A DNA stretch of 23,909 bases from Saccoglossus kowalevskii (Eukaryota; Hemichordata; Enteropneusta; Harrimaniidae). The DNA lies in contig NW_003133845.1 of assembly GCF_000003605.2 (NCBI RefSeq), positions 312,255 through 336,163 of the forward strand, read 5' to 3'. Below are positions 534 to 23,909 of this stretch, piece by piece. Made by a program: the position numbers and the translations under genes. The notes below the pieces were generated by a model that was given only the letters and a program-made list of their open reading frames with translations, did not search any database and had not been told where the DNA came from. Position 1 is the stretch's first letter; every line of letters begins with the position of its first letter.

Positions 534-714
534 CCACTTACATTTCAATGCGGCACTGAGATTCCTGGATTGTTCACCTAATTTAAAGAATAAAACCAAC
601 TACGTTGAGGAGGCTGATAGATTCTATAAGAATCCCAACAAGTGGCTGAAGACAAGATACAGTAAACCAGGAACTCAGCCAAGTCTGTTGGTTTTCTATA
701 CTGTCCTGAAACCA
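534..714 (+). CDS. PIGB: GPI mannosyltransferase 3 (PIG-B-like), third-from-last coding exon, gene partial
   Basis: This exon encodes about 60 residues of the C-terminal region of PIG-B, the GT22-family ER enzyme that adds the third mannose (alpha-1,2) to the GPI-anchor precursor from dolichol-phosphate-mannose. Seen: HLHFNAALRFLDCSPNL followed by YVEEADRFYKNPNKWL. From memory, human PIG-B has the parallel features HVHC..MRFLQCPPDL and YLDEADVFYLNP.NWL. The exon starts after an AG at 532-533, taking the last base of a serine codon. It ends in phase 0 before GTAAGT at 715-720. The catalytic N-terminal and multi-span membrane part of the gene lies to the left of the window. The assignment combines this motif match with the CCPG1-like neighbour, which is also PIGB's neighbour in human. 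Confidence 0.85.
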
Positions 715-1349
715 GTAAGTATCAGAGATTGCGGTCAAAACCTTGCGCTCATCCAAACCATTCGTTCCAAGCATACCTGCCAAACTTATCGCAAATCAGT
801 TATCTATCAGGTAGCAAATTTGATAGCCATCTTGCAAAACGGCAGTTCCATGTGCATGAGCCCCACCTGTTGCCATTGCTTGTGATATTCTCAGGTCATT
901 TATGCATGATAATTTACCATATGTACTTGGGCACAGAAATGCTATGCTTCAACTTTCAAGAAGCACTAAGAACATTGGAATGTTAATTACTGTGAAACCA
1001 TTTATTTTCACTGGCATTTAATTTTGATATTTTGATCAATTTCACTGAGTTATAAGTTCACAAACTTGCCAGGTAAGTACAAAGATCTATTGTTATTTCA
1101 CATGTTCACATATGTTTAATTTCACTTATCTGCGAAAATAGCAAAATTAAAAAAACAGTGAATATTTAATGTGTTTACAGTATCGCTATTGTTACAAATA
1201 GTATATGCAAATTAGATTGTATCATTATGCAAATTATCCACCATGTTTTTTGCATTTCTCTAGGGAGGGGGACACTGCACTCTAAAAACATAAATCACTT
1301 TTCACTTGTATCCAATCACTATCTGATATTGTTTTGTTTCTATTTTCAG
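715..1349 (+). other. PIGB-like intron
   Basis: GT-AG intron between two phase-0 exon ends (GTAAGT donor at 715, ctattttcag acceptor ending at 1349). It holds a diverged inverted-repeat element at 988-1182. Two perfect POU octamers, ATGCAAAT, lie at 1205-1212 and 1227-1234. Nothing coding is supported in it. Confidence 0.75.
988..1182. mobile_element. Diverged TA-flanked MITE (TACTGT...ACAGTA)
   Basis: The left end tactgtgaaacc plus tttattttcactggcattta is mirrored at the right end by ...aacagtgaatatttaatg and tttacagta. The same termini and the 'ttcactgg' sub-terminal block occur in the copies at 3793, 5676 and 11172. Internal sequence is eroded, so this is an older copy than those at 3793 and 5676. 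Confidence 0.5.
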
Positions 1350-1388
1350 AGAATCAAAGAATATTTGATAGAGCATAATTACAAAGAG
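1350..1388 (+). CDS. PIGB: PIGB-like, penultimate coding exon (39 nt micro-exon)
   Basis: Thirteen codons, RIKEYLIEHNYKE, lie between a T-rich acceptor (tattttcag) and a GTGTGT donor at 1389. Both ends are in phase 0, matching the exons on either side. The NYK core followed by the next exon corresponds to the ..SNYK..FFHTHLPEGR stretch of PIG-B. At 39 nt it would be missed by simple ORF finding, and it is called from phase and homology. Confidence 0.8.
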
Positions 1389-1665
1389 GTGTGTATAAAG
1401 ATTGATCGCAAACTTGTAATGATAAACTAGCCAATTAAATTTTTTTTACAGCAATTGCTGAAAAAAAAGTGTAGCAATGTCATTGGTTTCCCTTGCAATG
1501 TTATAGAACGGCTACTACTTAATTTTTAATTGGTCAAAAAACCCTGAAAAGTTAAGGAAAAATTATCAAAATCTTAAAAATTTTGATAGATTTTGTGCTC
1601 CTATTTGTTAGGTAGAATACTAGCAGTCTACTTTGATGCAATAATTTGTTTCATTTGCTTTCCAG
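1389..1665 (+). other. PIGB-like last intron
   Basis: 277-nt GT-AG intron, phase 0, ending in a good polypyrimidine tract (tttcatttgctttccag). No other element was recognised in it. Confidence 0.8.
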
Positions 1666-1779
1666 GGTGCAAAGTTCTTCCACACCCATTTCCCTGAGGG
1701 CAGAGTTGGAAAGAAAGTGGTTGTGTATCGTAAAACTTCAAAGGTGCCACCAGAATTTGAAGACATGAAAAATAACTAG
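1666..1779 (+). CDS. PIGB: PIGB-like, last coding exon with stop
   Basis: This exon encodes GAKFFHTHFPEGRVGKKVVV and then YRKTSKVPPEFEDMKNN, ending at TAG 1777-1779. The FFHTH-PEGR-G-VYRK pattern is the recognisable C-terminus of PIG-B (human FFHTHLPEGRIG..YVYERK, from memory). With the two preceding exons, 110 C-terminal residues of the enzyme are visible. The reading frame is continuous through all three exons with no break, so the gene looks intact over the part seen. Confidence 0.87.
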   Translation, partial: GAKFFHTHFPEGRVGKKVVVYRKTSKVPPEFEDMKNN

Positions 1780-1923
1780 TTATATATTGAGGTCATGTTA
1801 GACGTTAAGATGGATATAATATTTGGCGATTGTTAAACGAAAAGATGATTTCAGTGATGAGATATCGTTTCATCTACAGTGTGCGTCTCCACTTTTTATG
1901 AATTTTGTGACAGTGTGATTTAG

Positions 1924-6341: not shown

Positions 6342-9300
6342 TTAAGGTCTGCGAAGGAACCAGTTTGACTGATCGTCCATCTGGTATTTTCTCCACTCTT
6401 GGCGTTGTTCATACCGGTCAGCAAACCAGGTATACATATCCCACATGGTGAACCCCACACGCTGTTCATCGCGACTCCGAGCACGACTGAAAAACCAATT
6501 ATTCAATGTTTGGTCTTCCACATTGTATGTTAACAAGTGACGCTGCTCCTGGCGGTCCACTGCACGTTTGAAGAACCAGTCAGCATCACCTTTGCTTTCT
6601 TGACTTCCTGGATGGCCTGCACCTTTAATAGAATGTTTAAAAGCAGTCTCTTGATTAAACTCTCGTCTTACTGTGTTAGCATTACCCATTGCATGCTTCT
6701 TTTTCCTGTGACCATTTCCTTGCTTTTTTTCATCCTTCACTTCTTCTTCATCTTCAATGGTTTCCTTCTTCAATTCCTTGTCTGACTTCTGACGAATCTT
6801 TTCCAGTTGTTTTTCTTGCAGCTGCCTCTCTTTCTCCTGCTTCCTGTTGTGCTTCTTTGCTCTCTTCTCCATGTCTTCAAGAACATCCTCAAAATCTTCT
6901 TGCAGCTCATCCAGATCATTATCATCAGGGTGTGGGTCATCCATAAACTCTTCCAAATCATCCAGGAACTCTTCGATCTCTTTAATGTCTTTTTTGTAGT
7001 GATGGTCTTTCAGCCACTGACGATAGTGCAAAAGTTCCACATACAATTTTCTTGCACCCTCTACTTGTTTACCGATACATTCTTGGTTGCCATGGCAGTG
7101 GATATCACGGTCATCTTCAAAGTCATCCCAGCAATGTGCTGTGTCTTCTTGTCTGATTCCTTTACTGGTTTGTCTGGGCTGATGTTGCTTTCCTGTGTTT
7201 TCAGATTGTTTCTCAGCATCCATCATTCTTTCATACATGGTCTGTTCTTGTTCTTCATCAATTTCTGGTTTTGTTTCTACCTCATCATTCCAAAAGTTCC
7301 ATTGCCACAGTTTATCTTTAATCTCTTCTCCTGGAAACTTAATTGCTTTTAACCATTTTTTTGTTCTCTTTTGACCCGGAGCATTACCAGCCCTTCTGTT
7401 TTCCCGTGCTTGTTGCATTTTTCTCATCCAGGCTTTTTTAGCTTCCCTATAACTGTACTCTCCAGCTCTTCGGTCATGGATCCTCTCTGTCATTGTTTTC
7501 TCTTCTCCAGGTAATCTAATACTTCGCATCCAGCGTTTTTTACCTTTAGTTGGTTTCCCATTAGCACTATTCTCTTTCTTCTTTAGTACATGCTGGACTG
7601 TCTCCTTCACACCTTTCCATGTTGAGTCAACAGTTTTCTTGATGGTATCAGTCACAGAGCTTAGAGTCCCACTGGTATCTTCACCTTTAAGTATTTTTAC
7701 AGAATAATTCTGGACAGACTGCCAGGTTTTTTGAATACTCTCACCAAGCTTTGTCACTTTTGACTTGAACTCCTTGGACACTGTATAGTTTTTCAACTGT
7801 TGCCACTTTTCATGGAGTGTATCTGATACTGAAGACCAAGCAGATTTGGTTTTCTCGGAATATGCAGCAAACTCTTCTGATTTAGCAAAAGCTTTAATTT
7901 CATCTATTTTGTCTTTCAACAAATCATTTAGACTTAGAATGGCTTCTTTACTGGTTTCAACGTATGAACTGAACTCCTCAGACTGGGTGAAATGTAAAAC
8001 TTTCACCCACTGCTCTTTGAGTGTTTCCGTCAAGTTGACCAGTGTATCACCACTGCTACTGTAGTAATCAGCCATCGTTTCAGTAAAGTTTGTAAGCGGA
8101 GTAGCATTCATCTGTTTCATGATATCAGAAATGTCAACCCGAGGAACAAACATGTTGATGCATGTAAAGAAACTAAGACCAGGATCATTTGAACAAGATT
8201 CTTGCTTCTTTTCGTGTTCTTCAACAAACAGGCTTCTCCACATTTCGGCTCTTCCGTGTTCATATTCGAGACCATTCTGAAGTTGCATAACTTTGCGTTG
8301 ACAGGATATTATTTCTGGACTGAGTTCAGTTTCATTACTTTCAATTTCATCAGGCAGTGTTTGCTCATCATATAGTTCAACTGGTGTGTCCTCATCTACC
8401 ATGACAATAGTGGGATAAACAGTCTCCTGGTTATCACTGCCGATGAGTTCATCCACAGGTTCATCAATTTCAACTTCAATATTTTCGTTACTAATTTGTT
8501 CTTCCCAACTAGAAATTTCAGACTCATAATCCTCTGATCCAGTATCCCCTTTGGCATCATGTACACTCTTCAATTGCTCAGAAAGAGGCTTCTTAGGTGG
8601 CGCCAAAACAAGATTGAAACTGTCTAAGTCGTTGTCTTTTTCTCCCATTCGTTCATCTTCTGGTGCAGGAGAAACAAATTGAGGCCGGTGTGCAAAAAGC
8701 AGGCCAGTAGTACCTCCTCGATGTTTTCTTTCAATGGTATGGAATTCTTCTAATTTAACAGGTGAATTGCCTACAACCTGATCATCAACTTCTTGTTCTC
8801 CATGTACATCCTGGTATTTTAAGTGGATGATAGCGCTGTCTTGGTCATGTGCACTGACTTCATCACTGCCGATGACTTCATCAACAGGTTCATCAATTTC
8901 AACTTCAACATTTTCGCTACTAATTTGTTCTTCCCAACTAGAAATTTCAGACTCATAATCCTCTGATCCAGTATCCCCTTTGGCATCATGTACACTCTGC
9001 AATTGCTCAGAAAGAGGCTTCTTAGGTGGCGCCAAAACAAGATTCAAACTGTCTAAGTCGTTGTCTTCTTCTTCCATCAGTTCATCTTCTGGTGCAGGAG
9101 AAACAAAATTAGGCTGGCGTGCAAAAAGCAAGCCAGTAGTACCTTCTTGATGTTTTCTTTCATTAGTGTGGAATTCTTCTAACTTAACAGGTGAATTGCC
9201 TGCGAGCTGATCATCAACTTCTTCTTCACCATGTACATCCTGGTATTTTAAGTGGATGATAGCGCTGTCTTGGTCATGTGCACTGACTTCATCCTCTATG

Positions 9301-9823
9301 AAAACATCTGAACTATAGTGCTCTAACTGGACGTCCAGACTTTCTTGTACATTTAACTGAATATCAGAAACGACATCCTCTTCTGACTGTTCATATACCA
9401 TGTCATGTTCTTCTACCCATCCGTCATGACTGTCTTGATGATCTATCTGACTGTCATCTTCTATCTGTGCATATGCATCATCTTCACTCGCTGGCTCAGT
9501 CATATCATTTATTGGTAAAATGATAACATTATCATTTGTTTTCTCATCTTTGGATAGTGGTAACTCAATAACAGTTTGTTCATCACTGATGTCATCTGAC
9601 TCTGGTATGGGTGAAATATGAGCAGTGTCAGGCCGTTTTTCTTGCATCATAATAGTTTCATATTTATTTCTTTGTTGATCCAGCTCAGCCATCATGTTGT
9701 CTAATTCCAATTCCATCATTTCATCATTTTCTAGACACGTTAGCAGCTCATTCTGAAGAGACTTCAGTCTCAGTATCTGTCCTTCCTGTACTTTCTGTTT
9801 TTGAAGGTTTTCATTGCTTGACC
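6342..9823 (-). CDS. CCPG1: CCPG1/PBXIP1-like ER-phagy receptor, last coding exon (coiled coil and lumenal region)
   Basis: This 3482-nt exon encodes residues 315-1473. The acceptor is ttgtatttcag, ending at 9824. The first codon is split (phase 1) and fits the upstream exon, giving ..GHFIG-SSNENLQ. Residues about 325-375 are an acidic, Glu/Gln/Leu-rich heptad region. Next comes an acidic region with two 143-residue copies (about 492-777). Residues 828-850 (LEYEHGRAEMWRSLFVEE) match a conserved CCPG1 stretch (human LTFEQQRSDLWERLYVEA, from memory). A 34-residue repeat follows at about 895-1012 with SEEF/SEEF/SKEF. Sequons NATP, NFTE, NLTE, NYTV and NYSV lie at about 885-1020. Paired KRWMRSIRLPGEE and KKWLKAIKFPGEE occur at about 1074-1148. 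A strongly charged coiled coil and then WF repeats (1392-1473) end the protein at TAA. In mammals the part after the membrane helix is lumenal. The protein is about twice the length of human CCPG1 or PBXIP1. It is probably the single invertebrate counterpart of both. Confidence 0.9.
8433..8861 (-). repeat. Coding tandem duplication, downstream copy (143 codons)
   Basis: This is the C-terminal-side copy of a 429-bp in-frame direct repeat in the CCPG1-like lumenal region, residues about 635-777. It runs from EVSAHDQDSAIIHLKYQDVH to ..VDELIGSD. By eye the two copies differ at about 17 of 143 residues. The unit is acidic and includes APPKKPLSEQL and SEISSWEEQIS. Confidence 0.95.
8862..9290 (-). 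repeat. Coding tandem duplication, upstream copy (143 codons)
   Basis: This is the N-terminal-side copy, residues about 492-634, directly abutting the other copy with an exact 429-bp period (atcactgcc at 8433 and at 8862). The length is divisible by three, so the frame is kept. The acidic positions are the most variable between copies. Confidence 0.95.
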
Positions 9824-10749: not shown

Positions 10750-11010
10750 CAATAAAATGTCCTAGTCCAAGAGCCAGGCCAGCTGTCACCACAAGTATGA
10801 GCATCAAGTTGAGTTTTGTGTTGAGACCATCATCTCTATAATGACGATATCGACGTACAGCAGGCTTGAGAGCAACAGGCGAGATATCACCAAGTGTGGA
10901 ATAAAGTGAGTACTCGTCAACATAAGATGAGCTTTCATCCTCTTCGTTTAGATCCAATGTATCCGGACTGTCTGGTCTGTCACACGGATCATCTCCACCT
11001 TCCACTGGCA
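10750..11010 (-). CDS. CCPG1: CCPG1/PBXIP1-like, transmembrane exon
   Basis: 261 nt, residues 228-313 plus two split codons. The acceptor cctcttgcag ends at 11011, and the donor is GTAAGT at 10749. It encodes an acidic-serine stretch (NEEDESSSYVDEYSLYSTL), a basic patch (AVRRYRHYRDD) and then one transmembrane helix, LNLMLILVVTAGLALGLGHF. Human CCPG1 has DDESSSDE, then FRRRRARKK, then a helix ending MGFGHFYG (from memory), so order and spacing match. The basic patch on the N-terminal side of the helix supports N-in/C-lumen topology. YSTL at 263-266 fits the [WFY]xx[LIV] LIR core behind acidic residues, but is only a candidate. Confidence 0.9.
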
Positions 11011-11171
11011 CTGCAAGAGGAAAAACATCAACGTATGATATTGAGTTTCAAAGCATTACAGCACATTCATGCAATGCATTCACCAGGGTTATAATTACAA
11101 AACTGATGCTTTGTCCATACATTATGAGTATCAAACTATTCTATTGGCTTGCAGCATGCATTTATGCCCAG

Positions 11172-11376
11172 TACTGTAAATGAGTTAAATATTCACTGGT
11201 TTTAAATTTCCCTATTTTTTGCTGCTAAGTAAAATCTGATAAATTAAATGTACATATTTCTAAAATAACATTAGAACTTATTGTTTTCCTGCCTGGTTCA
11301 TGAACTTCAAACACGGTGAATTGCTCAAAACATTAAACTAGTTAAACCAAATGCCAGTGAAAATTATTTTACTGTA
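11172..11376. mobile_element. Diverged TA-flanked MITE
   Basis: The left end tactgtaaatgag then aatattcactgg is mirrored at the right by ccagtgaaaattattttactgta. Length (205 bp) and termini match the family at 3793 and 5676, while the interior is largely unlike them. The copy is old, or belongs to a related subfamily together with 988-1182. Confidence 0.55.
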
Positions 11377-12309
11377 TACTTTATGATTGCATGTACATGT
11401 ACTTTGTCATAGGTACTTGCATGTACCGGTACATGTAGAAAACAAACAAATGCCATTTGCTAGTTTTCACTTTGACCCATGTACTAAAACACAGGTACAT
11501 TTTAAATAGACAAATATTTGTTTATTTTGGCCAAAAGTGGCATGATTGTTACAACATTTTCAAAAATTGTGAAAAAATCAAGCAACCACACATGTAGATA
11601 TGAAATGATATGAAAAGAATTGTAACACTTATACAGGATTTAGGTATGTGTGATACTATATTTCATTACATGTATAGTGTTGTTTGAAATGATAATTAGA
11701 GGCTTGTTTGAGTGATTATATTACAACTACCAGGTAGCTACAAAAAGACAAGATGATATGGTGGATGTCTCTAAATTTAGATAATGTACAAAAATATCAT
11801 GTGATAATGATGTGGCTGTTTATGTGTGCATGACAATATACAGTAGAAGCCCTTGGGATTAAAATTTGGCATATTTTAAATATATTTCTTTTCAGTATGT
11901 CCAAATGAGAGCATTTGTCTTGGCTGACAATTCAATGTATTTCAAATTTTCCTTGCTAACACTTTTGTATAATAGTGTTCCAAAGCAAAGGACCACACAA
12001 AGATTCCCTTCTGTTCTGAATTACTGCATGCCCCAGTAATTTCGAAACAAGACAAAAATCCTTTTAAATCGTTTTTCTCTCTCAATGTATGCAATTCAGA
12101 TCATCAAATATTTTATAACAATCACAAGACCCCCAATGAAGCTTTATGTGCAACGTCAAATATTAAAGCATTCTAACACTCATCTATTAAAATGAATTAT
12201 GATTACAGCTTCAACATAGATGATAGCAAGTAATAGGAAGCTATGATACACAACCTACACTCTAAGCAATGATGGTTTTATTGTAACAGTAAATTCACAC
12301 ACAATTAAC

Positions 12310-12875
12310 TAGACTGGTGCAGTCAGGGCGATTAATTTGTTTTTGTAGTTTAAATAAAATAAAAAAAATTGCGAAATGGAGGTGTTAGTGCGAAATCCCC
12401 TGTAACTGCGAAATCACCCCGACTGGTTTATTCTGCATGGCCCTCTATCGACAGTGCAGGAACCAGTCAATTTTTCAACGGGTAATTATGTTAATGAGTG
12501 TTCTAATTGACAATCATCTAAGCCAATCACAACGTCTCTTCAATTAACCTCTGACCGAAAGGACGTTGGCTGATTGTAGCAGCCGATTTTTTTTTTTATT
12601 TTACGACTAGTACGAGTTACTTACACATTGTGACAAACTCGAATTTCAACGTGCCGCCATGTTGGGTCTGCAGTGTGACCTTTACCATGTTGACCTCATT
12701 ATGCATTTAATTCCACGCCCCCCCTCATTATAATATGTGCATTCATGAATATTTAATAGCAATGAATTTCCTGCAGAATGAACCAGTCATTTCGCGCTAA
12801 CACCTCCATTTCGCGAATTTTTTTATTTTATTTAAACTACAAAAACAAATTAATCGCCCCGACTGCGCCAGTCTA
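12310..12875. mobile_element. 566-bp MITE with 87-bp TIRs and 9-bp target duplication
   Basis: ACAATTAAC occurs exactly on both sides (12301-12309 and 12876-12884). The element begins TAGACTGGTGCAGTC and ends GACTGCGCCAGTCTA. The TIRs 12310-12396 and 12789-12875 agree at all but about five of 87 positions. A second inner inverted block (gactggtttattctgca / tgcagaatgaaccagtc) extends the hairpin. There is no open frame. A 9-bp duplication with long TIRs is typical of Mutator-like elements; Merlin or hAT types are alternatives. The interior has a perfect YY1-type site on the minus strand (CCAACATGGCGGC, 12653-12665) and a CCAAT box at 12515. Confidence 0.92.
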
Positions 12876-13836
12876 ACAATTAACATACATGTAGAATTCC
12901 TTCTAGAACACATGTAGTTCATGCATTTGGGGTAGCAGAGGTGATTTCATACTGAGATTTAACTGAATGTTTTCTGATTTGCAAATCTACAAACTTTCTG
13001 AAAATGTTTTTACTTGTCAAAGATGTATTGAATCTTGATAGACTGACACCATGCTAATATCAGTGTTAGCACTGAGTAAATTAGACATTGAGAAATTTAT
13101 TCAAAAGTCATTACAGGTAAATATTAATTTTGTTAGTGCTACTTGTGTGACACTTCATAACCAAAGTAAATTTTCGTTAACTTTCACAAAATAAAACCCA
13201 CATAATTCTTTTAAAAGTTTTGATAAAGAGTGTAGCCATCAGGAAATTTAATCTTTTTGACCCCAAAAATTATCAAAACACTAAAAAAAAGCCAAATGTT
13301 GCACCAAAATTTCTTCTGGAAAAATTATGGGTTGATGAAATTTCACTGAGCAACTAAGTGAGATCATTCAGCAAGTTTGGTGCAAATGAGGCAAGAAAAA
13401 AGAATGGTGTAGAAACAAAGTATTCCAAAATATGAAGCTCAACAAATTCACATATTACATGCAATTTGTCAATACAGACAGATGAGAAATATAATTGCAG
13501 TAAGTTTAAAATAAGGCAATTTAGAAAGCAGACATGGTGAAACACGACAATAACTGAAATATTTTGCATTCAATAGAGTAATATGGTGGTGTGCTAGAGC
13601 ATGCAGGTATCACATACTTGTGCAGTTAACCCTTTCAGAACTGAAGAGAGTAGAAACAAAACCCTTAAAAAAACCCATGCATACAATTGAATTACCATTA
13701 TCAAAAAGTTAGACATCACCCAAATATTAAAGAGTCTTACAAATACAAGTTAGATTAGTTATTGTACAATGCATGGTACACGACAGTACTGATAGGGTAA
13801 AATACTACACCACACCACTACCTTGTAATCTCTTAC

Positions 13837-14040
13837 GTGGAAAGAAACAAAAGGTGTCCAATGACGATCCTGCTGAAGATGTAAGCGAACCAGCAGCCTG
13901 TGTACTCGAAGTGTCTTCATTTTCATCTGGTATGTTTGAAGGATCTATCCGAACGTAATCAGAATCAGAATCACTACTAGAGCTGGGTTGACGTATTGGT
14001 ATTGGCTTGACAACAGCTGGTAGCTCAGCAGTTACATAGC
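13837..14040 (-). CDS. CCPG1: CCPG1/PBXIP1-like, cytosolic-region exon
   Basis: 204 nt, residues 160-226 plus two split codons, phase 1 at both ends. The acceptor is ttgttttttcttgtatag, and the donor is GTAAGA after ..CFFP-C. It encodes a proline-rich segment (YVTAELPAVVKPIPIRQP), then SSSSDSDSDYVRIDPSNIPD. The DSDYVRI core at 184-190 looks like the acidic-serine FIP200-binding motif of CCPG1 (human SDIVTLE, from memory). It also fits a LIR core (Y187-V-R-I190). The rest is serine/threonine-rich and probably disordered. The exon has no recognisable domain alone; it is assigned by phase agreement, composition and position between two recognisable exons. Confidence 0.8.
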
Positions 14041-14756
14041 CTATACAAGAAAAAACAAACACAACATGTCATTAAAATTAAATGTGTGATTAGAATTTTT
14101 ACAATGAAGGAAAAAACGTTTTATTACAACACGATTTACACATCGTCTGAATTTTACGGTGTGAAAATGAGTTAGGGTCTGTGGGAAAACAGTCAAACGC
14201 AAAATCTATATCATTATCTTCATCATGGAATGTTTTCAATTAGACTCAAGAGCTGGATGCAAAGCAATTTACGTCACTATGTTTTTCGGCCGGATTTGAC
14301 CTGAAATAACGTCCTCTGACCTAACTGGTCTAGTCTTTCAGTCAAAATGCTGTGTTGTATTGATGAAATTTTCCGAAAATGTCTGATTATTCTGATTAAG
14401 TGAATTACAGGAATGTTCAAATATGATTTCTCAGCATTGATTTTGACGAAAAACTGTTTATTTTTCCCCCCTGAAAACTGATGATTCGCAATGTTCAAAA
14501 GGTGAAACTGAGTGTGGAGGAAGTATTTAACAGCTTCCACTGTCCCAAAAGGTCATGTTGAAGCACTGTTTACTCGTTTCACACCCTATTCGCGATAGTA
14601 TTAACAAAAGTAAAACGATGTCCAATGACCAGGTTTCATGACTTTGACAGTCACATTTTTGGCGTTTTGAAATCTACCACTCAAAGAGATATGGATTACT
14701 TCAGAATTGCAACATCATCAACAACAGAAAAAATAGTCAAAGAAAGCTTAGAAAGA

Positions 14757-15969
14757 ACTCCCGTGTGCCGAGAGTATTGAAGACACATTAAAAATTAATT
14801 AAAAATTACTTGTACATGAGATATAGATGGAAAAGCTGAAAACTAATTATGTAAATCAGGTAACTAATATGAACAGAACAGAACAAAAAAATTATGAATT
14901 ATTATGCTAACTAGAGAATTAATATGAACAAATTTTAACCCAAAATTAATCAGGCCTAGAGTATTTATGTACCAAATTTTATTCAAATGTGATGATCAGT
15001 AATTGAGATATCAGTGTTAATTAATTATGTTAATTAGGTGATTAATAAGCATAAATATTTACCAAAAACTAATTGGGTCTCTCCATAGTTCTCTTTAAAA
15101 GTTTCGTTAAAATCTTAAGTACCAAGTGTCATTGATATGTGATGATTACTACTTGAAATATCAAAAGTTGAAAATTAATTAATTATGCAAATTAGTTAAT
15201 TAATATGTACTCATATTACCCTAAAAACTATCAGGTCTGTGCAGTGTCCTATGACGTCTATGCACCAAGTTTCATTGAAATGTGATAATTACTACTTGAA
15301 ATATCAAAAGCTGAAACTTAATTAATTATGCAAATTAGGTAATTAATATGTACTGATATTACCCTAAATACTATCAGGTCTGTGCAGTGTCCTATGACAT
15401 CTATGTACCAAGTTTCATTGAAATGTGATGATTACTACTTGAAATATCAAAAGCTGAAATTTAATTAATTATGCAAATTAGGTAATTAATATCTACTGAT
15501 ATTACCTTAAAAACTATCAGGTCTGTGCAGTGTCCTATGATATCTATGTACCAAGTTTCATTGAAATGTGATGATTACTACTTGAGATATCAGTGGAAAA
15601 GCAGAAAAATGATTAATCATTATGCAAATTAGGTAATTAATATTGCACAGATTTTTACCCAAAATTAATCAAATCTGCGCATTAGTTTGGAGCATCTATG
15701 TGCCTAGTTTCATCAAAATCCAAAGAGTGGTTCTTTAGTGGAACAGTCATGGAACAGCTAAAAATCAGCTAATTATCATGCAAATTAGGTAATTAATATG
15801 CATGGATTTTTACCAAAACCTAATCAAATCTGTGCATTGGCTCAGAGCATCTATGCACCAAGTTTCATCAAAAATCAATGTATGGTTCTTGAGATATCAG
15901 TGGAACAGACACACACAGACAGACACACTAACTGCAAAGACTCCCTTTTTGTGCTTCGCACACGGGAGT
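14757..15969. mobile_element. 1.2-kb element with short TIRs around a tandem array
   Basis: ACTCCCGTGTGC at 14757-14768 is mirrored exactly by GCACACGGGAGT at 15958-15969. Between them runs a head-to-tail array of units of about 143-156 bp, followed by a cagacaca microsatellite-like stretch and a terminal hairpin. No open frame and no clear target duplication were seen. The class is uncertain: a MITE or a satellite-bearing non-autonomous DNA element. Confidence 0.65.
14835..15900 (+). repeat. Tandem array of ~145-bp units carrying POU octamers
   Basis: The anchor word ttatgcaaattaggtaatta recurs at 15183, 15326, 15469, 15620 and 15774, with degenerate forms near 14850, 14906 and 15028. Spacing is 143, 143, 151 and about 155 bp. 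Other shared blocks are ctgtgcagtgtcctatga, ccaagtttcattgaaatg and gatgattactacttga. The central units (15183-15600) are nearly identical and the outer ones are diverged, as expected if the array expands from its middle. Confidence 0.9.
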
Positions 15970-15970
15970 C
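15939..15970 (+). repeat. Terminal stem-loop
   Basis: GACTCCC (15939-15945) pairs with GGGAGTC (15964-15970), and TGTGC pairs with GCACA around a TTC loop inside it. It marks the right end of the 1.2-kb element. Confidence 0.75.
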
Positions 15971-16655
15971 AAAAACCATATTGCATTGTTCGGCATTGCA
16001 CAGTGAAATTAATGCCATATGGCTCTTGTTAAAAAGAGATTATTGTACCAATCAAGATTTTTATGCAATAAAACACACTTATTACACAAATATTTTTAAT
16101 AAATTCAACCCATCGTCAACGTCTGGTAAAAAGCACCCTAGGCGTATAACCCGGGATGCCCTCAACTAATTAATGTTTAAAAATAAGAGGTAGGCTTATA
16201 CCCAGAGAGGGGTCTATGATCAGGGAAGTACAGTAATAGGGGGGGGATTATAATACCGGTATATAAAAATCATGCCTACCCATGTTTTTAGCCTGTTACT
16301 TGAAACACCGAATTTGTGTTATTTGGCATTAATACAAGAATTTTGTCTTTAATTGCAATATCATAAATTTGTAATCTTGAAGTTTTAAATATATTACTAT
16401 CTTATTAATATTTCCTTTTGTTTTCTATATTAATTTGCCACTTTATTTCACCAAGTCTAAAAATAATATATTGATTGATTATGATGACGAAGCCTGTATA
16501 TAATCTGTTTAATTTATACATGTAAAGTCTGAGAGAATACTAACAACTTATCAGGTTAATTGATATGCAGGCAATAAACACTTTTAGTTAGTTTAGAATA
16601 AAGACCAATAATATACAGTCCTGGATTATATAATACTACTTTACTAACCTTTTAA

Positions 16656-18900
16656 GGTAGCGAGAAGGGAAATTTTCACTTTTTTCTTTCAAAAATTGAT
16701 AAAACGGTTACTTTAGACCTTGATACATCATCCCAGGTTTACAAAAGATCGAAATTGAGAAATAACGTTGCTTAAATTAGTGTTTTAAAATGCTAGAACA
16801 AAAGACTACAACTGCCGTTTCCTGGATAATTGCATAATGTTTATCTTTGGAAGGGTTTAAATGATAACATCTTATCTGTATACTTTGTTGTTGACGATTC
16901 TGATATAACGGATGCTAAGCTTTCCGTCGCAAACAATGCGTGTTTATCTAACGTCCATTGTCAGCATTATTGTCAGTCGAGAAACTGAGAAACACGGTCA
17001 AACAGTCCGGGCATACAGTACTCATTTCGCCCAACCTTCCGCTTTTACATCAACCGCTTATCGCTTAATTTTCGACCATGTCCGACCGGAAACCGACCGC
17101 ATTTTAATCGCGTTTTTTTTTCCGCTAGCTCGCTCATTGAAACACCGACCGCTCGCCCAAACACGTATCACTGGCACATGAGTGGACGAAATGGTGGTTT
17201 TGATAGTAAAGTGTGAACATACAACTAGTATTAACTATTCCCGGTATTAAATTCTGAACGACACTTCAAATCTAATAGTTGTATGACACTTGTATCGTGA
17301 AAGCAACTGAACTGTGACCTCTTGTTACGTGTTTTGGGTGCTTCTTCTAGATGAACTATTTTTTTTATTAATTTTAATGATAGTTACGTGAAAAAAGCAT
17401 AGGTAACTCATTTTGACAGAGCAGAGAAACAAGGAAATGTTAATGATTAATTCCAAAAATAACGATATCGAATCCACATCGGTCCATGTCTGGTAAAATT
17501 TAATGAGTTCAGTCTATACCGTATACGCACCGTAAAAGTGTTCCCACAAAAAATATTTTCGACTAAAAACGGCCACATGCCCTGAAAAAATCGAACAGAG
17601 CTTGACATGTATGAATAATTTATTGGGCTTAAAAAAACGTGTCAAATTCAGTTATAGCCATAAATATTTGGTGACCAGTCGATGAACAATTCGTAACTCA
17701 GGATTCACACGGAGGTCCTTCAGGGCTGAAAATCATCGACCCTACTCTGGTTTACTTTTTTTCCCAACTTGCAGAGAAAACTGATTTGCCGTGGACTCTA
17801 ATGTATCTCAGCCTATTATTTTCTTTTTGAACTGAGGTCAAAATATACCGATGTTTTTCAGCGAATAAGTTTTAAAGCCTGTCACAGCACAAAAACACTA
17901 TGTGAATCGACGCCGAAAATTGGATGGTACGACGACCCTTCAATTAGCGTCAAATATGCTTTGTTACAACATCATTGATTGGTTGAAAGTCACATGATCG
18001 GAGCACAACCTGGGTCACAGAACCATATTTGTCAGTATTATCAACAGGACCACGCAAAAGAACCACACCCACATTTTCTATCTTTTTTAGAGCGAAAGTT
18101 GCCAACAAATGTCAAAAAACTCGTGAATTTCATGGATTCAAATAAAATAAAGCAAGCGATTGATAAGAAATCCGAACGTTCCTGGAGTACGGACTCAAAT
18201 GCCAGCAGTTTTCTTCATTTTTCACGCTCGAGCTTGAAATTATTCCTTATCTGACACTCTTTATGAGTTTTATGATATCAGAGGTTAATATTTTTGGCCA
18301 TTTTTAGTGTATATTTATAATAATGCAGCAAATCTACAGTGTTTTTATTAACCAAAATTGTTTTTCGCGTTTTTCTCGAGTTGAGGTTTCGACTGAGTAC
18401 GACTCATTGGGACCGCCGCCAAACCAAGTGCGTTCGGACTAGGACATTTGAACTCGCAGCTATCGTTCAAAAGATAATGATGGTGTGAAATATGTCTGGG
18501 TTTTTAAAGAAAATGCTTTGTCACAGAATAATAGTCTGTTAAAGGTGCCAAGTATGAAATAATTTGGGGACAAAAAAACAAACCTGCATAGAAATCGGAA
18601 TAATAGGTCTTTTGATTACCAGGGACACATTTCAATGGACTTGATTACGGACAATGCATGACGTAAATTTCACCAGAAAATTCTGCAGTGTGCTCTCGCA
18701 AACGCGGACTTAGTCATTTTTACAAGGTTCGCAATTTTTGATGTCACGTGATAATTATGTAAACAATGACTGTCCAGTTTGTACGAACTTGTACCTCTAT
18801 ACTTAGTCTTTTGAAATATATAAGCTAAATTACTGTTCTGAACGAGACAACAGACAGAGAATGTTTTATTCGAAAACGTCACAAAACCCTTCTCGCTACC
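16656..18900. mobile_element. 2.2-kb DNA transposon-like element with TTAA duplication, apparently non-autonomous
   Basis: TTAA at 16652-16655 followed by GGTAGCGAGAAGGG is mirrored exactly by CCCTTCTCGCTACC at 18887-18900 followed by TTAA at 18901-18904. A 14-bp TIR with a TTAA target duplication fits piggyBac or Kolobok families. The interior is visibly richer in CpG and GC than the host intron (for example around 17040-17165 and 18360-18470). Its longest open frames (16912-17181 and 17979-18254, both +, about 90 codons) carry no DDE transposase motif that I can recognise. It may be a deletion derivative that relies on a transposase elsewhere. Confidence 0.82.
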
Positions 18901-20725
18901 TTAATGGATATAATTTAATCTCAAAAACATTGAATGAAATAAGTTTTAGGGTTGATTTTAAGGTGAACTTTACACAAGAACTGCTAATGTCTGTCTTATT
19001 CACACTGAAATTTACACTAGCATATCAATTAATTAAACAAGAGTTTTAGGATTTTCATCCAGGTCCTCTCATTGACTTTTAGGCACTATGTTTAAATAAT
19101 TAAAAAGCTCCTCATGCCTTGTTGCTTAAGTACATGAAAACTCAGAGTGACTTTGATTAAATACATGTATCATAGTGAGAACAAATATGATTAGCCATGT
19201 TGAATAACAAAAAAAATATCCAGCAGTGAATATTCTACAATCGATTACTAAAATGTTGTTTAAAAATTTCCGGAAAATACTTTGTTATATTCCTAGACTA
19301 AAATGAATGCTGTGGGAAAATGCTCAGATTACAGCTCATACTATTTACATGTAAATACATCTATAGCTGGTTTACATCCTATACTTAAACCCTGTGATTA
19401 CAAATTAAATACAACTGGATAAACACAAATCTGGATTACAACTTTCTCATTTTACCTTGAGAATCCATTAGCGATGATAGTGCAAAGTATACTTGACTTA
19501 CAGGATATGCAATTATGATGTGTGTCATCAGCTATATTTAGATTCAAGTATATTTATTGACTACAAACTATATCTTCATATATGTGCACTGTCTCAACAA
19601 TTCACAAATCCCTCAGGTCATTACAGAAACTATTAACTGTATAAAAATAGCCAATAGTGATTGCAGAAACTGATTAAAATAGCATTGTTACTCCCCTATA
19701 AATAACAGAATGTGTATTTTTATCATGTTAAATTAACAGAATATTATTACCCTACAAATTACAGCTAATTTGTAAGCTACTTTAATTTGTTTTTAAAAGA
19801 ATGGCAAATACCCCGATAACGTCATTTTCTAAATTTAACTGACACAAAAGTGGGAATAGGTTGTTGTAGGGTTGGAACCTTAAAACTAATTGCATATGCA
19901 TGCATGCCAGGGAACATAAATAACATTTTATTATATCTTGCAATCCAAATACAATATATACCTACTCCCTGAATTTAGCAATTATAATACATTTTTAGTA
20001 TACACATGTACAGACTTAATAATTTCTCCTTCTGAAAAAGCTAATAATCTGCTGAAATTAGAATCAGGGAAAATGTGTTGTGAATGTATTTAGGTTCGCT
20101 TGAATTCAGAACACCAGTTGTGAAAGCTTTACACACAACAATGAAACAGGTATGGTCAAAGTTCATATACAGACAAAAAATGATCTTTACAGATAAACAC
20201 ATCAAAAAATAAATTGTAACTATTGCCCAGGCTTTGAGGACAATACATAATGCACCAAAAATGAGTGTCCAAAATTGTCAAGGTTACAGAGTGAGACGAA
20301 TTGTTAACTATGATATGCATATTAATTATGTGTTCTTTTATGACATAATTTATAAATGAGAGATCACATAGAAATATTTCTTTGGTCAAAATAAGTAATA
20401 TTTGAATGAGAAGAATACAATTAATGCACTAATGGTTAACATGACTCATTATTGGAGATGCACCGGTAATGCAAAACATTTTTGTAAGTTCACAGAGGCT
20501 TCAAATGCAATTGCCATGAATGCCAATCTTTACAGATATTCTCTACAATATTCTTATAGATATTGCATTAAAACTTGGTGCCCATTCCTAAGTGCAAGCC
20601 CCAAGATGGTATAGAGATGGCAAGTATCTGTATTGCACCAAACTAGGTCATATTGAAGAATTGAATATCATAAGATGGTATCACATGTGGAAACTCATGT
20701 ATCACAAAGTAAACAAGTAACTCAC

Positions 20726-21125
20726 CATCTTGTGTTCCTTCATTATTTATCAATGCGTGTAATACATCCTGTAAGGATTGACTGAATTCCATCTTAGTCA
20801 AGTCCTCAACTTCTTCATCATCAGAATCACCGGTTGCTGTGACAACATTTTCAACAGTCTTTTCTTCAGGAGTTGTTTCGATTGTGGCAACCTGCTCAGC
20901 TGGCATTTCAAAATATTTTATTTTAAGCTCTTGAATTTCATCTTTGACAGTTTGTGGCTCTTTAATCGATTCATTCTGATCATAAAGTGTTTCTGGCTCA
21001 GCAGCATTGGGTTGCTGGGCAACAGTTAGATCTGCATCTGCATCTTCTTTTTGTTTATGATATTCAACTGTATCTGTATTTTCCTCTAAAGTGACAAAGT
21101 CTGAAGAAGTCTCACTTTCATTTCC
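20726..21125 (-). CDS. CCPG1: CCPG1/PBXIP1-like, second coding exon
   Basis: 400 nt, residues 26-158 plus one base. The acceptor is aatacacag ending at 21126 (phase 0), and the donor is GTGAGT after ..NNEGTQD-G. It opens with GNESETSSDFVTLEENTD, which closely resembles the first FIP200-interacting region of human CCPG1 (SDDSDIVTLEP, from memory). F35-V-T-L38 also satisfies a LIR core. The remainder is highly acidic (EETVENVV..GDSDDEEVEDL) and predicted to be disordered and cytosolic. The exon fits in phase between the start exon and 14040-13837. Confidence 0.87.
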
Positions 21126-21401
21126 CTGTGTATTGACATTATTAAACATTTTAATAAAAAAGAGGAAATGATGTAATTAAGAGTAAGCGTTCTCCTTAAA
21201 TTGCAGTGTAACAGTACCAGTACATTAAAAAAAATGTCATTATTCCATTCAGTATTCAAGAATGTGTTGTTCTTTGTAATCATAGACCCTGTTTTTCTAA
21301 GTTTCACAGAAACTCTCCATCAATGCTCTATTACTAAAAGTTACCAAGGTAATTGTAGTGATAAACATCTTTCCTATTTGAAAAAGATGACAATCACACA
21401 C
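21126..21401 (-). other. CCPG1-like first coding intron
   Basis: 276-nt phase-0 intron with a GTGTGT donor and a T-rich acceptor region. No embedded element was recognised. Confidence 0.8.
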
Positions 21402-21476
21402 CTGGATTGTTCCTGCATTGTCTACCACTGTCCAGTCACCTAAGGAGACCTCACTGTCGCTGGAGTTGGCTGACAT
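21402..21476 (-). CDS. CCPG1: CCPG1/PBXIP1-like, start-codon exon with LIR motif
   Basis: Twenty-five codons, MSANSSDSEVSLGDWTVVDN followed by AGTIQ. Human CCPG1 begins MSENSSDSDSSCGWTVI (from memory), so both the start and the motif are conserved. D14-W15-T-V-V18 is a canonical LC3/GABARAP-interacting motif behind acidic and phosphorylatable serines. In mammalian CCPG1 this motif links ER fragments to autophagosomes. The ATG at 21476-21474 has A at -3. The frame stays open upstream, but a splice acceptor (tttgttctcag) ends at 21512, so the in-frame extension is 5' UTR or intron. The donor GTGTGT at 21401 is in phase 0. Confidence 0.92.
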
Positions 21477-23227: not shown

Positions 23228-23909
23228 AACAACTTGCAGCATTGCATTATACAGAGTCAACTTTTTGTAGCCAACGACTTGCAACATTGTATAATGCAAC
23301 TTTTGTAGACATCAACTTGCAACATTGCATTATACAGGGTCAACTTTTATAGACAACGACTTGCAACATTGCATGATGCAACTTTTGAAGACATCAACTT
23401 GCAACATTTAATAAAACAATGTCAACTTTTGGAGACAACGACTTGCAGCATTTCATGAAACTGAGTCAACTTTTGTAGACAACAACTTGCTACATTTAAT
23501 GAAACAAGGTCAACTTTTGTAGACAACAATTTTCAACATTTCATGCAACAATGTCAACTTTTGTAGACAACGAATTTTAGCATTTCATGAAACAGGGTCG
23601 ACTTTTGTAGACAACAACTTGCAACATTTCATGAAACAGGGTCAACTTTTGTTGACAACAACTTGCAACATTTAGTGAAACAATGTCAACTTTTGTAGAC
23701 ATCAACTTGCAATATTTCATGAAACAGGATCAACTGTTGTAGACAACAATTTTCAACATTTCATGAAACAATGTCAACTTTTGTAGACAACGACTTGCAG
23801 CATTTCATGAAACAGGGTCAACTTTTGTAGACAACAACTTGCAACATTTCATGAAACAGGGTCAACTTTTGTAGACAACAACTTGCAGCATTTCATGAAA
23901 CAGGATCAA
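23228..23909 (+). repeat. 44-bp minisatellite, runs off the right edge
   Basis: About 15 head-to-tail units built from caacttttgtagacaac, aacttgcaacatttcatg and aaacagggt. The period is exactly 44 bp between 23775, 23819 and 23863. The first units (23228-23400) are shorter and diverged, with gcattataca and a ten-base deletion. Units become more uniform to the right, so the array probably continues. The period is not a multiple of three and no frame stays open through it. Confidence 0.93.

Follow-up and report, generated by a model that had tools for sequence, protein, structure and literature searches.

A CCPG1-like gene in the acorn worm Saccoglossus kowalevskii with candidate LIR and FIR2-like motifs in its cytosolic tail

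The stretch of DNA analysed here (the window, 23,909 nucleotides; assembly GCF_000003605.2, contig NW_003133845.1, positions 312,255 to 336,163, forward strand) comes from the hemichordate Saccoglossus kowalevskii. Its minus strand carries a gene resembling vertebrate CCPG1, an endoplasmic reticulum (ER) membrane protein that drives autophagy of the ER (ER-phagy) and docks the autophagy machinery through an LC3-interacting region (LIR) and FIP200-interacting regions (FIR1 and FIR2). The gene has five coding exons with GT-AG at every border, starts with an ATG at 21476 and encodes 1478 amino acids (aa); the model is a prediction from the genomic sequence. Its parts, in coding order, are as follows.

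21402..21476, minus strand: exon 1, aa 1-25, with the start codon and the candidate LIR
21423..21437, minus strand: D14-W15-T-V-V18, the candidate LIR, which also fits the FIR consensus (human LIR, W14/I17)
20726..21125, minus strand: exon 2, aa 26-158 (133 aa)
21084..21107, minus strand: SSDFVTLE, aa 32-39, FIR2-like motif with the aromatic core F35
13822..14040, minus strand: exon 3, encoding aa 159-231 of the cytosolic tail; being of phase 1-1, it can be skipped in frame
13943..13966, minus strand: DSDYVRID, aa 184-191, FIR2-like motif with the aromatic core Y187
10750..11010, minus strand: exon 4, aa 232-318, the end of the tail and the transmembrane segment
10892..10903, minus strand: YSTL, aa 268-271, Leu at -1, judged to be chance or a YxxPhi motif
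10751..10813, minus strand: transmembrane segment LNLMLILVVTAGLALGLGHFI, aa 298-318, the hydropathy maximum
6342..9823, minus strand: exon 5, aa 319-1478 and the stop codon, the presumed ER-luminal part

The span at aa 298-318 is the single clear hydropathy peak of the protein (next peak, 1.03). Basic residues ahead of it suggest that the N-terminus faces the cytosol, which would leave an acidic tail of 297 aa in the cytosol and some 1160 aa in the lumen. Exon 3, which carries Y187, is the only exon that can be skipped in frame while the membrane span is kept, so splicing could change the number of motifs. No relative was found by NCBIfam (exon 2, exon 5 and a single PIGB exon, all below the cut-off), by a solved-structure search with exon 2, its first 52 aa and exon 5, or, as expected, by comparison of exon 5 with prokaryote and viral collections. 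Neither Rfam nor a tRNA scan gave anything in the window. Structure prediction for luminal aa 817-1478 from the single sequence gave a model with a mean pLDDT of 45, which was not used.

Exons 1 to 4 each contribute one core of the form [WFY]xx[LIV] to the tail (aa 1-297), four in all: W15TVV, F35VTL, Y187VRI and Y268STL. According to PMC7946963, the FIR consensus (Psi-Theta-x-x-Gamma) consists of D/E/pS/pT, then a bulky hydrophobic or aromatic residue, with L/I/V at +3; aromatic residues are thus admitted. W15, F35 and Y187 fit this consensus. Y268 fails it with Leu at -1, and was rejected as a LIR or FIR on that ground and for the wrong coordinates under which it had been proposed. To judge chance, the tail was shuffled 20,000 times and seven patterns were tried, with P-values left uncorrected. 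Cores with D/E at -1 numbered three against 0.66 expected (P 0.024) and D/E-preceded FIR-type cores seven against 2.65 (P 0.013); the three FIR-type patterns gave P 0.013-0.022. The excess was not significant for cores with D/E/S/T at -1 (3 vs 1.24, P 0.12) or at both -2 and -1 (2 vs 0.52, P 0.09). In the lumen, used as a control with 3,000 shuffles, neither bare cores (16 vs 13.9, P 0.31) nor cores with D/E at -1 (2 vs 3.1, P 0.84) were enriched.

The original prediction, made from the letters of the window, had described one acidic or serine-preceded core in each of four small cytosolic exons. The motifs are real but were partly misdescribed. Positions, separate exons and the preceding Asp are correct for W15, F35 and Y187. 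The fourth motif had been placed at aa 263-266, where the residues are DEYS, and the sole fourth core, YSTL at 268-271, is preceded by Leu and not by Ser, Asp or Glu. Exon 2 with its 133 aa is not small, and exon 4 continues into the membrane span. As a statistical signal, the proposed arrangement in exon modules is not supported: one core in each exon is reached by chance with P 0.05-0.06, and the sole phase 1-1 cassette that is cytosolic throughout is exon 3.

The Asp-preceded cores and their likeness to human FIR2 moderately exceed chance. The human CCPG1 LIR comprises W14/I17 (PMC5791736) and reads CGWTVI, with Gly ahead of Trp (PMC7946963). A candidate N-terminal LIR of this kind (W-T-V-[IV] around residue 14) is present in the acorn worm as W15TVV18. 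The published FIR2 peptide SDDSDIVTLEPPK (PMC7946963) was slid along the tail and scored against shuffles. Its top place was Y187 (score 28, P 0.027), and F35 came second with a score of 23 (P 0.012 that a runner-up scores this high or higher). SSDFVTLE around F35 is identical to the human claw-contact residues DSDIVTLE (103-110) at 6/8 positions (P 0.003 for any place, 50,000 shuffles); the human Ile is replaced by Phe and the FIR2 motif S-D-Theta-V-T-L-E is present. DSDYVRID around Y187 shares 4/8. On this difference in exact-residue identity, F35 is well supported as a FIR2-like motif and Y187 is a probable one. When human aa 96-125 were aligned with gaps, using a provisional human sequence, aa 176-200 matched at P 0.009. 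The side chain of human T108 in FIR2 bonds E1563 of the claw (PMC7946963), and at the equivalent place the F35 motif keeps Thr whereas the Y187 motif has Arg. Both motifs have a serine (S33, S185) at the place of S104, so tuning by phosphorylation would be possible. The place aligned to FIR1 beside the LIR (human aa 20-27) reads T-I-Q-G-N, lacks the hydrophobic residue at +3 and is degenerate. This loss was not treated as decisive, since FIR2 is the major contributor in human CCPG1 (PMC5791736). Three further parts of the original prediction stand up: the first motif occupies the CCPG1 LIR position, the second and third resemble the FIP200-binding motif as the two best FIR2-peptide places in the tail, and the motif balance is unlike that of mammals, with Asp-preceded aromatic cores, two FIR2-like motifs and a degenerate FIR1. 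Its assignment to a CCPG1-type receptor tail likewise agrees with the N-terminus, the span and the neighbourhood described below.

CCPG1 has a vertebrate relative, PBXIP1. The human sequences of both used for comparison are provisional and do not come from database records; the first 241 CCPG1 residues agree with 10/10 positions checked in PMC5791736. Aa 1-45 of the acorn-worm protein aligned with aa 1-45 of the provisional human CCPG1 with a score of 62, where the highest of 1000 shuffles reached 55. For the two membrane spans the score was 53, against a highest shuffled score of 36 in 1000. Twelve further comparisons of provisional segments yielded three with P below 0.02. One of them, bearing on the luminal cargo-interacting regions of CCPG1, joins aa 818-1110 to the provisional middle part of human CCPG1 (P 0.003). 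A match of the tail to the provisional PBXIP1 C-terminus (P 0.007) is probably a score misled by acidic composition; the tail did not match the provisional PBXIP1 N-terminus (P 0.385).

The neighbourhood of the gene points the same way. Within the window, the exons at the other end are in a tail-to-tail arrangement with it.

535..1780, plus strand: 3' exons of PIGB

We take these exons to belong to PIGB by their position and by a provisional similarity. They gave no Pfam match, and a solved-structure search with a PIGB exon returned weak unrelated matches only. Further upstream on the same contig, Pfam identified the gene of the microprotein PIGBOS1 (L006:5629-5853, minus strand; PF23670, E 1.9e-13, 50.8 bits vs a cut-off of 27), and beside it a PIGB exon (L006:6257-6643, plus strand; PF03901, E 5.2e-7, 29.6 bits vs a cut-off of 23.8). 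Another PIGB exon lies at L005:1271-1489, plus strand (PF03901, E 2.9e-5, 23.9 bits vs the same cut-off of 23.8). In human, CCPG1 is the next gene after PIGB. By this order, the PIGBOS1-PIGB-CCPG1 neighbourhood is present in the acorn worm, and the block may predate vertebrates. PIGBOS1 lies opposite PIGB in the human genome (PMC6814811), and PIGB and CCPG1 have been listed as targets of the same variants (PMC4911550). A literature search on the PIGB neighbourhood gave no title on a PIGBOS1-PIGB-CCPG1 block among the matches listed; one of them, PMC9315513, names all three genes.

N-terminus, membrane span and the PIGBOS1-PIGB neighbours together indicate a CCPG1 relative, and the gene is probably the hemichordate orthologue of vertebrate CCPG1. 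Searches of the acorn worm's own genome covered 572 Mb in 4830 contigs, and their match counts are lower bounds. They gave no second copy; among the matches listed this was the only CCPG1-like gene, and exon 5 matched its own place only. The mitochondrial code of this genome points to a hemichordate, most likely a Saccoglossus-like one, in the small sample of a single gene. COX1 lies on a contig of 17,037 bases; its nine ATA codons align to Ile five times, to Val twice and to Leu and Met once each in the best solved-structure match (7o37, a mouse protein), and its one AAA codon aligns to Lys. ATA is read as Ile in echinoderms and hemichordates, whereas AAA is read as Asn in echinoderms and as Lys in Saccoglossus, and is absent from Balanoglossus; the pterobranch Rhabdopleura also reads ATA as Ile and AAA as Lys (PMC3121625, PMC2697986). 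A tRNA scan of the mitochondrial locus showed no tRNA-Lys. CCPG1 was described as vertebrate-specific by Smith et al. 2018 (PMC5791736), which a 2022 review repeated (PMC9126229), and the passages on the subject in these sources and in PMC6971691 state either this or the lack of a direct sequence orthologue outside vertebrates. The acorn-worm gene, if rightly assigned, argues against a vertebrate-only CCPG1. A literature search for CCPG1 outside vertebrates returned no title on invertebrate CCPG1 among the matches listed; in databases, invertebrate genes may already bear a CCPG1-like name through automatic annotation.

We consider it quite likely that the gene encodes a hemichordate relative of CCPG1, a type II ER membrane protein whose tail combines a LIR with two FIR2-like dual motifs and recruits FIP200 and ATG8 proteins. 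The number of bare cores in the tail is that of chance (4, with 2.96 expected; P 0.34) and has no meaning in itself. Several results weigh against this main reading. The P-values of the other patterns are moderate as well as uncorrected. The lumen, about four times longer than the tail, also reaches FIR2-peptide scores of 23, and 22 in a twin copy. Two or more places with at least four identities to the claw-contact residues occur with P 0.22, which makes the Y187 likeness not significant alone, and the gapped alignment of aa 1-45 with human aa 96-125 gave P 0.054. As to the family, the segment homology rests on provisional human sequences, of which the first 241 CCPG1 residues are the part compared with published positions. 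Aa 1195-1345 matched the provisional PBXIP1 C-terminus (0/400 shuffles as good) and not the provisional CCPG1 C-terminus (P 0.113), so that the gene may be co-orthologous to both CCPG1 and PBXIP1. The simplest reading is one gene that is kin to CCPG1 and PBXIP1 alike and whose front is of the CCPG1 type. Pfam searches with pieces of exons 2-5 gave no family over the cut-off. Finally, a search of the own genome for the FIP200 claw family was empty, with its positive control silent too, and a provisional human claw sequence found no match there; both searches are uninformative.

A more modest alternative, which we regard as a serious though lesser possibility, is that the tail has two genuine motifs, W15 as a LIR and F35 as a FIR, with Y187 and Y268 being chance occurrences or YxxPhi sorting or tyrosine-phosphorylation motifs in an acidic tail. 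The chance-level count of bare cores speaks for it, as does their similar density in the lumen (16 in 1160 aa vs 4 in 297), and two 8-mers with as many FIR2 contacts as the 4/8 at Y187 turn up in 22% of shuffled tails. YVRI and YSTL also both fit YxxPhi. However, Y187 with its flanks, DSDSDYVRIDPSN, is the top-scoring place of the tail for the FIR2 peptide, and the likeness includes the preceding acidic run and the following [DE]P. It is unlikely that the three motifs act simply as LIRs that bind ATG8 proteins only, with FIP200 recruitment added in vertebrates. Aromatic cores suit ATG8, FIR1 is degenerate and neither search found the claw, but those searches carry no information, the FIR consensus allows aromatics (PMC7946963), and the FIR features are there: Asp at -1, a preceding acidic or serine run and the FIR2-identical SD-x-VTLE. 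That the CCPG1 likeness is superficial and the tail an unrelated acidic sequence is very improbable: exons 2-5 lack a Pfam family and acidic composition can inflate matches, as the PBXIP1 C-terminus match of the tail illustrates, but the alignments of the N-terminus and of the membrane span both scored above every one of 1000 shuffles, the LIR stands at the CCPG1-type position and PIGBOS1-PIGB adjoins.

The idea of a dual ATG8/FIP200 motif is not new; OPTN and FIR2 of CCPG1 are both published cases. The motifs of OPTN and p62 serve as both LIR and FIR (PMC7615515). Published work on human CCPG1 covers its LIR and FIRs, the claw structure and the competition with GABARAP (PMC5791736, PMC7946963): FIR2 of mammalian CCPG1 binds all six ATG8s, GABARAP and the FIP200 claw compete for it, and phosphorylation of S104 strengthens both interactions (PMC7946963). 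What is new is the distribution, in that the Asp-preceded W15, F35 and Y187 motifs all fit both consensuses as read from the acorn-worm sequence. In human CCPG1, by the same consensuses, neither the LIR, with Gly before Trp, nor FIR1 and FIR2, whose cores are Ile (PMC5791736, PMC7946963), fits both.

With human CCPG1 the predicted acorn-worm protein shares the type II ER membrane topology, the N-terminal WTV[IV] LIR, the FIR2-type SD-x-VTLE and a long lumen (PMC5791736, PMC7946963). It further shares a membrane span of the form LN...G-x-GHF-x-G and the adjoining PIGBOS1-PIGB, the human span being taken from the provisional sequence. The two differ in length (757 aa in human vs 1478 aa), in the residue at -1 of the LIR (Gly vs Asp) and in the cores (Ile vs Phe/Tyr). 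Unlike human CCPG1, the acorn-worm protein has two FIR2-like motifs, a degenerate FIR1 (T-I-Q-G-N) and a duplicated luminal block. OPTN and p62 have an aromatic-core, acidic-preceded motif for ATG8 or the FIP200 claw (PMC7946963, PMC7615515), which the acorn-worm protein shares by consensus only, and the dual motif of OPTN is tuned by phosphorylation (PMC7946963, PMC7615515). Both are soluble, whereas the acorn-worm protein is a predicted membrane receptor with three such motifs. The provisional PBXIP1 sequence resembles it in the C-terminal part (aa 1195-1345), while the PBXIP1 N-terminus does not match the tail. Yeast Atg39 works alike, with a single span, N-terminal Atg8 and Atg11 motifs and a luminal C-terminus (PMC6971691, PMC9126229); the likeness drawn here is one of design.

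Several segments of the lumen are repeated. A 143-aa block (aa 498-783; 8430..9287, minus strand) is duplicated in tandem, with 18 amino-acid-changing and 6 silent codon differences (NG86; non-synonymous divergence dN 0.061, synonymous divergence dS 0.099), and appears to be recent and weakly constrained. At 7320-7550 (minus strand) a basic segment resembling W-x-x-x-I-[RK]-[LF]-PGEE occurs twice (KKRWMRSIRLPGEE, TKKWLKAIKFPGEE), and four Trp-rich segments (WFFKRAVDRQEQR, WFFSRARSRDEQR, WFADRYEQRQEWR and WFLRRP) form a luminal repeat at the C-terminus (6342-6620, minus strand). Repeats also occur outside the exons. The intron between exons 2 and 3 contains AT-rich repeats, partly as a 143-base tandem array (14894-15908), and the one between exons 3 and 4 an 87-base inverted repeat, 94% complementary with arms 392 bases apart (12310-12875), which could be a small mobile element. 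A tandem repeat with a 44-base unit in about 16 copies (23228-23909) runs up to the end of the window.

For the preferred reading of the gene as a CCPG1 relative with dual motifs, we infer the following order of binding and regulation. Luminal cargo or ER stress would cluster the receptor, and the Asp/Ser-rich FIR-type motifs would then call in the ULK complex via the FIP200 claw. Phosphorylation of the serine ahead of the core might strengthen FIP200 recruitment. Subsequently, the FIR-type motifs and W15 would bind LC3/GABARAP on the growing membrane. Since claw and ATG8 compete for one peptide, the three dual motifs of a cluster could hold both partners together or, alternatively, allow a hand-over from FIP200 to ATG8.

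It is possible, though rather doubtful, that CCPG1 is older than vertebrates with an undifferentiated ancestral tail, in which every docking motif fitted the LIR consensus as well as that of the FIR. Vertebrates would later have divided the work between a Trp motif preceded by Gly, serving ATG8s, and motifs with an Ile core, serving FIP200. A hemichordate CCPG1 that carries a LIR together with FIR-type motifs would mean that ER-phagy coupled to FIP200 through a membrane receptor goes back at least as far as early deuterostomes. It would also offer a natural test of how a single core residue, Ile versus Phe or Tyr, decides whether ATG8 or the FIP200 claw is bound.

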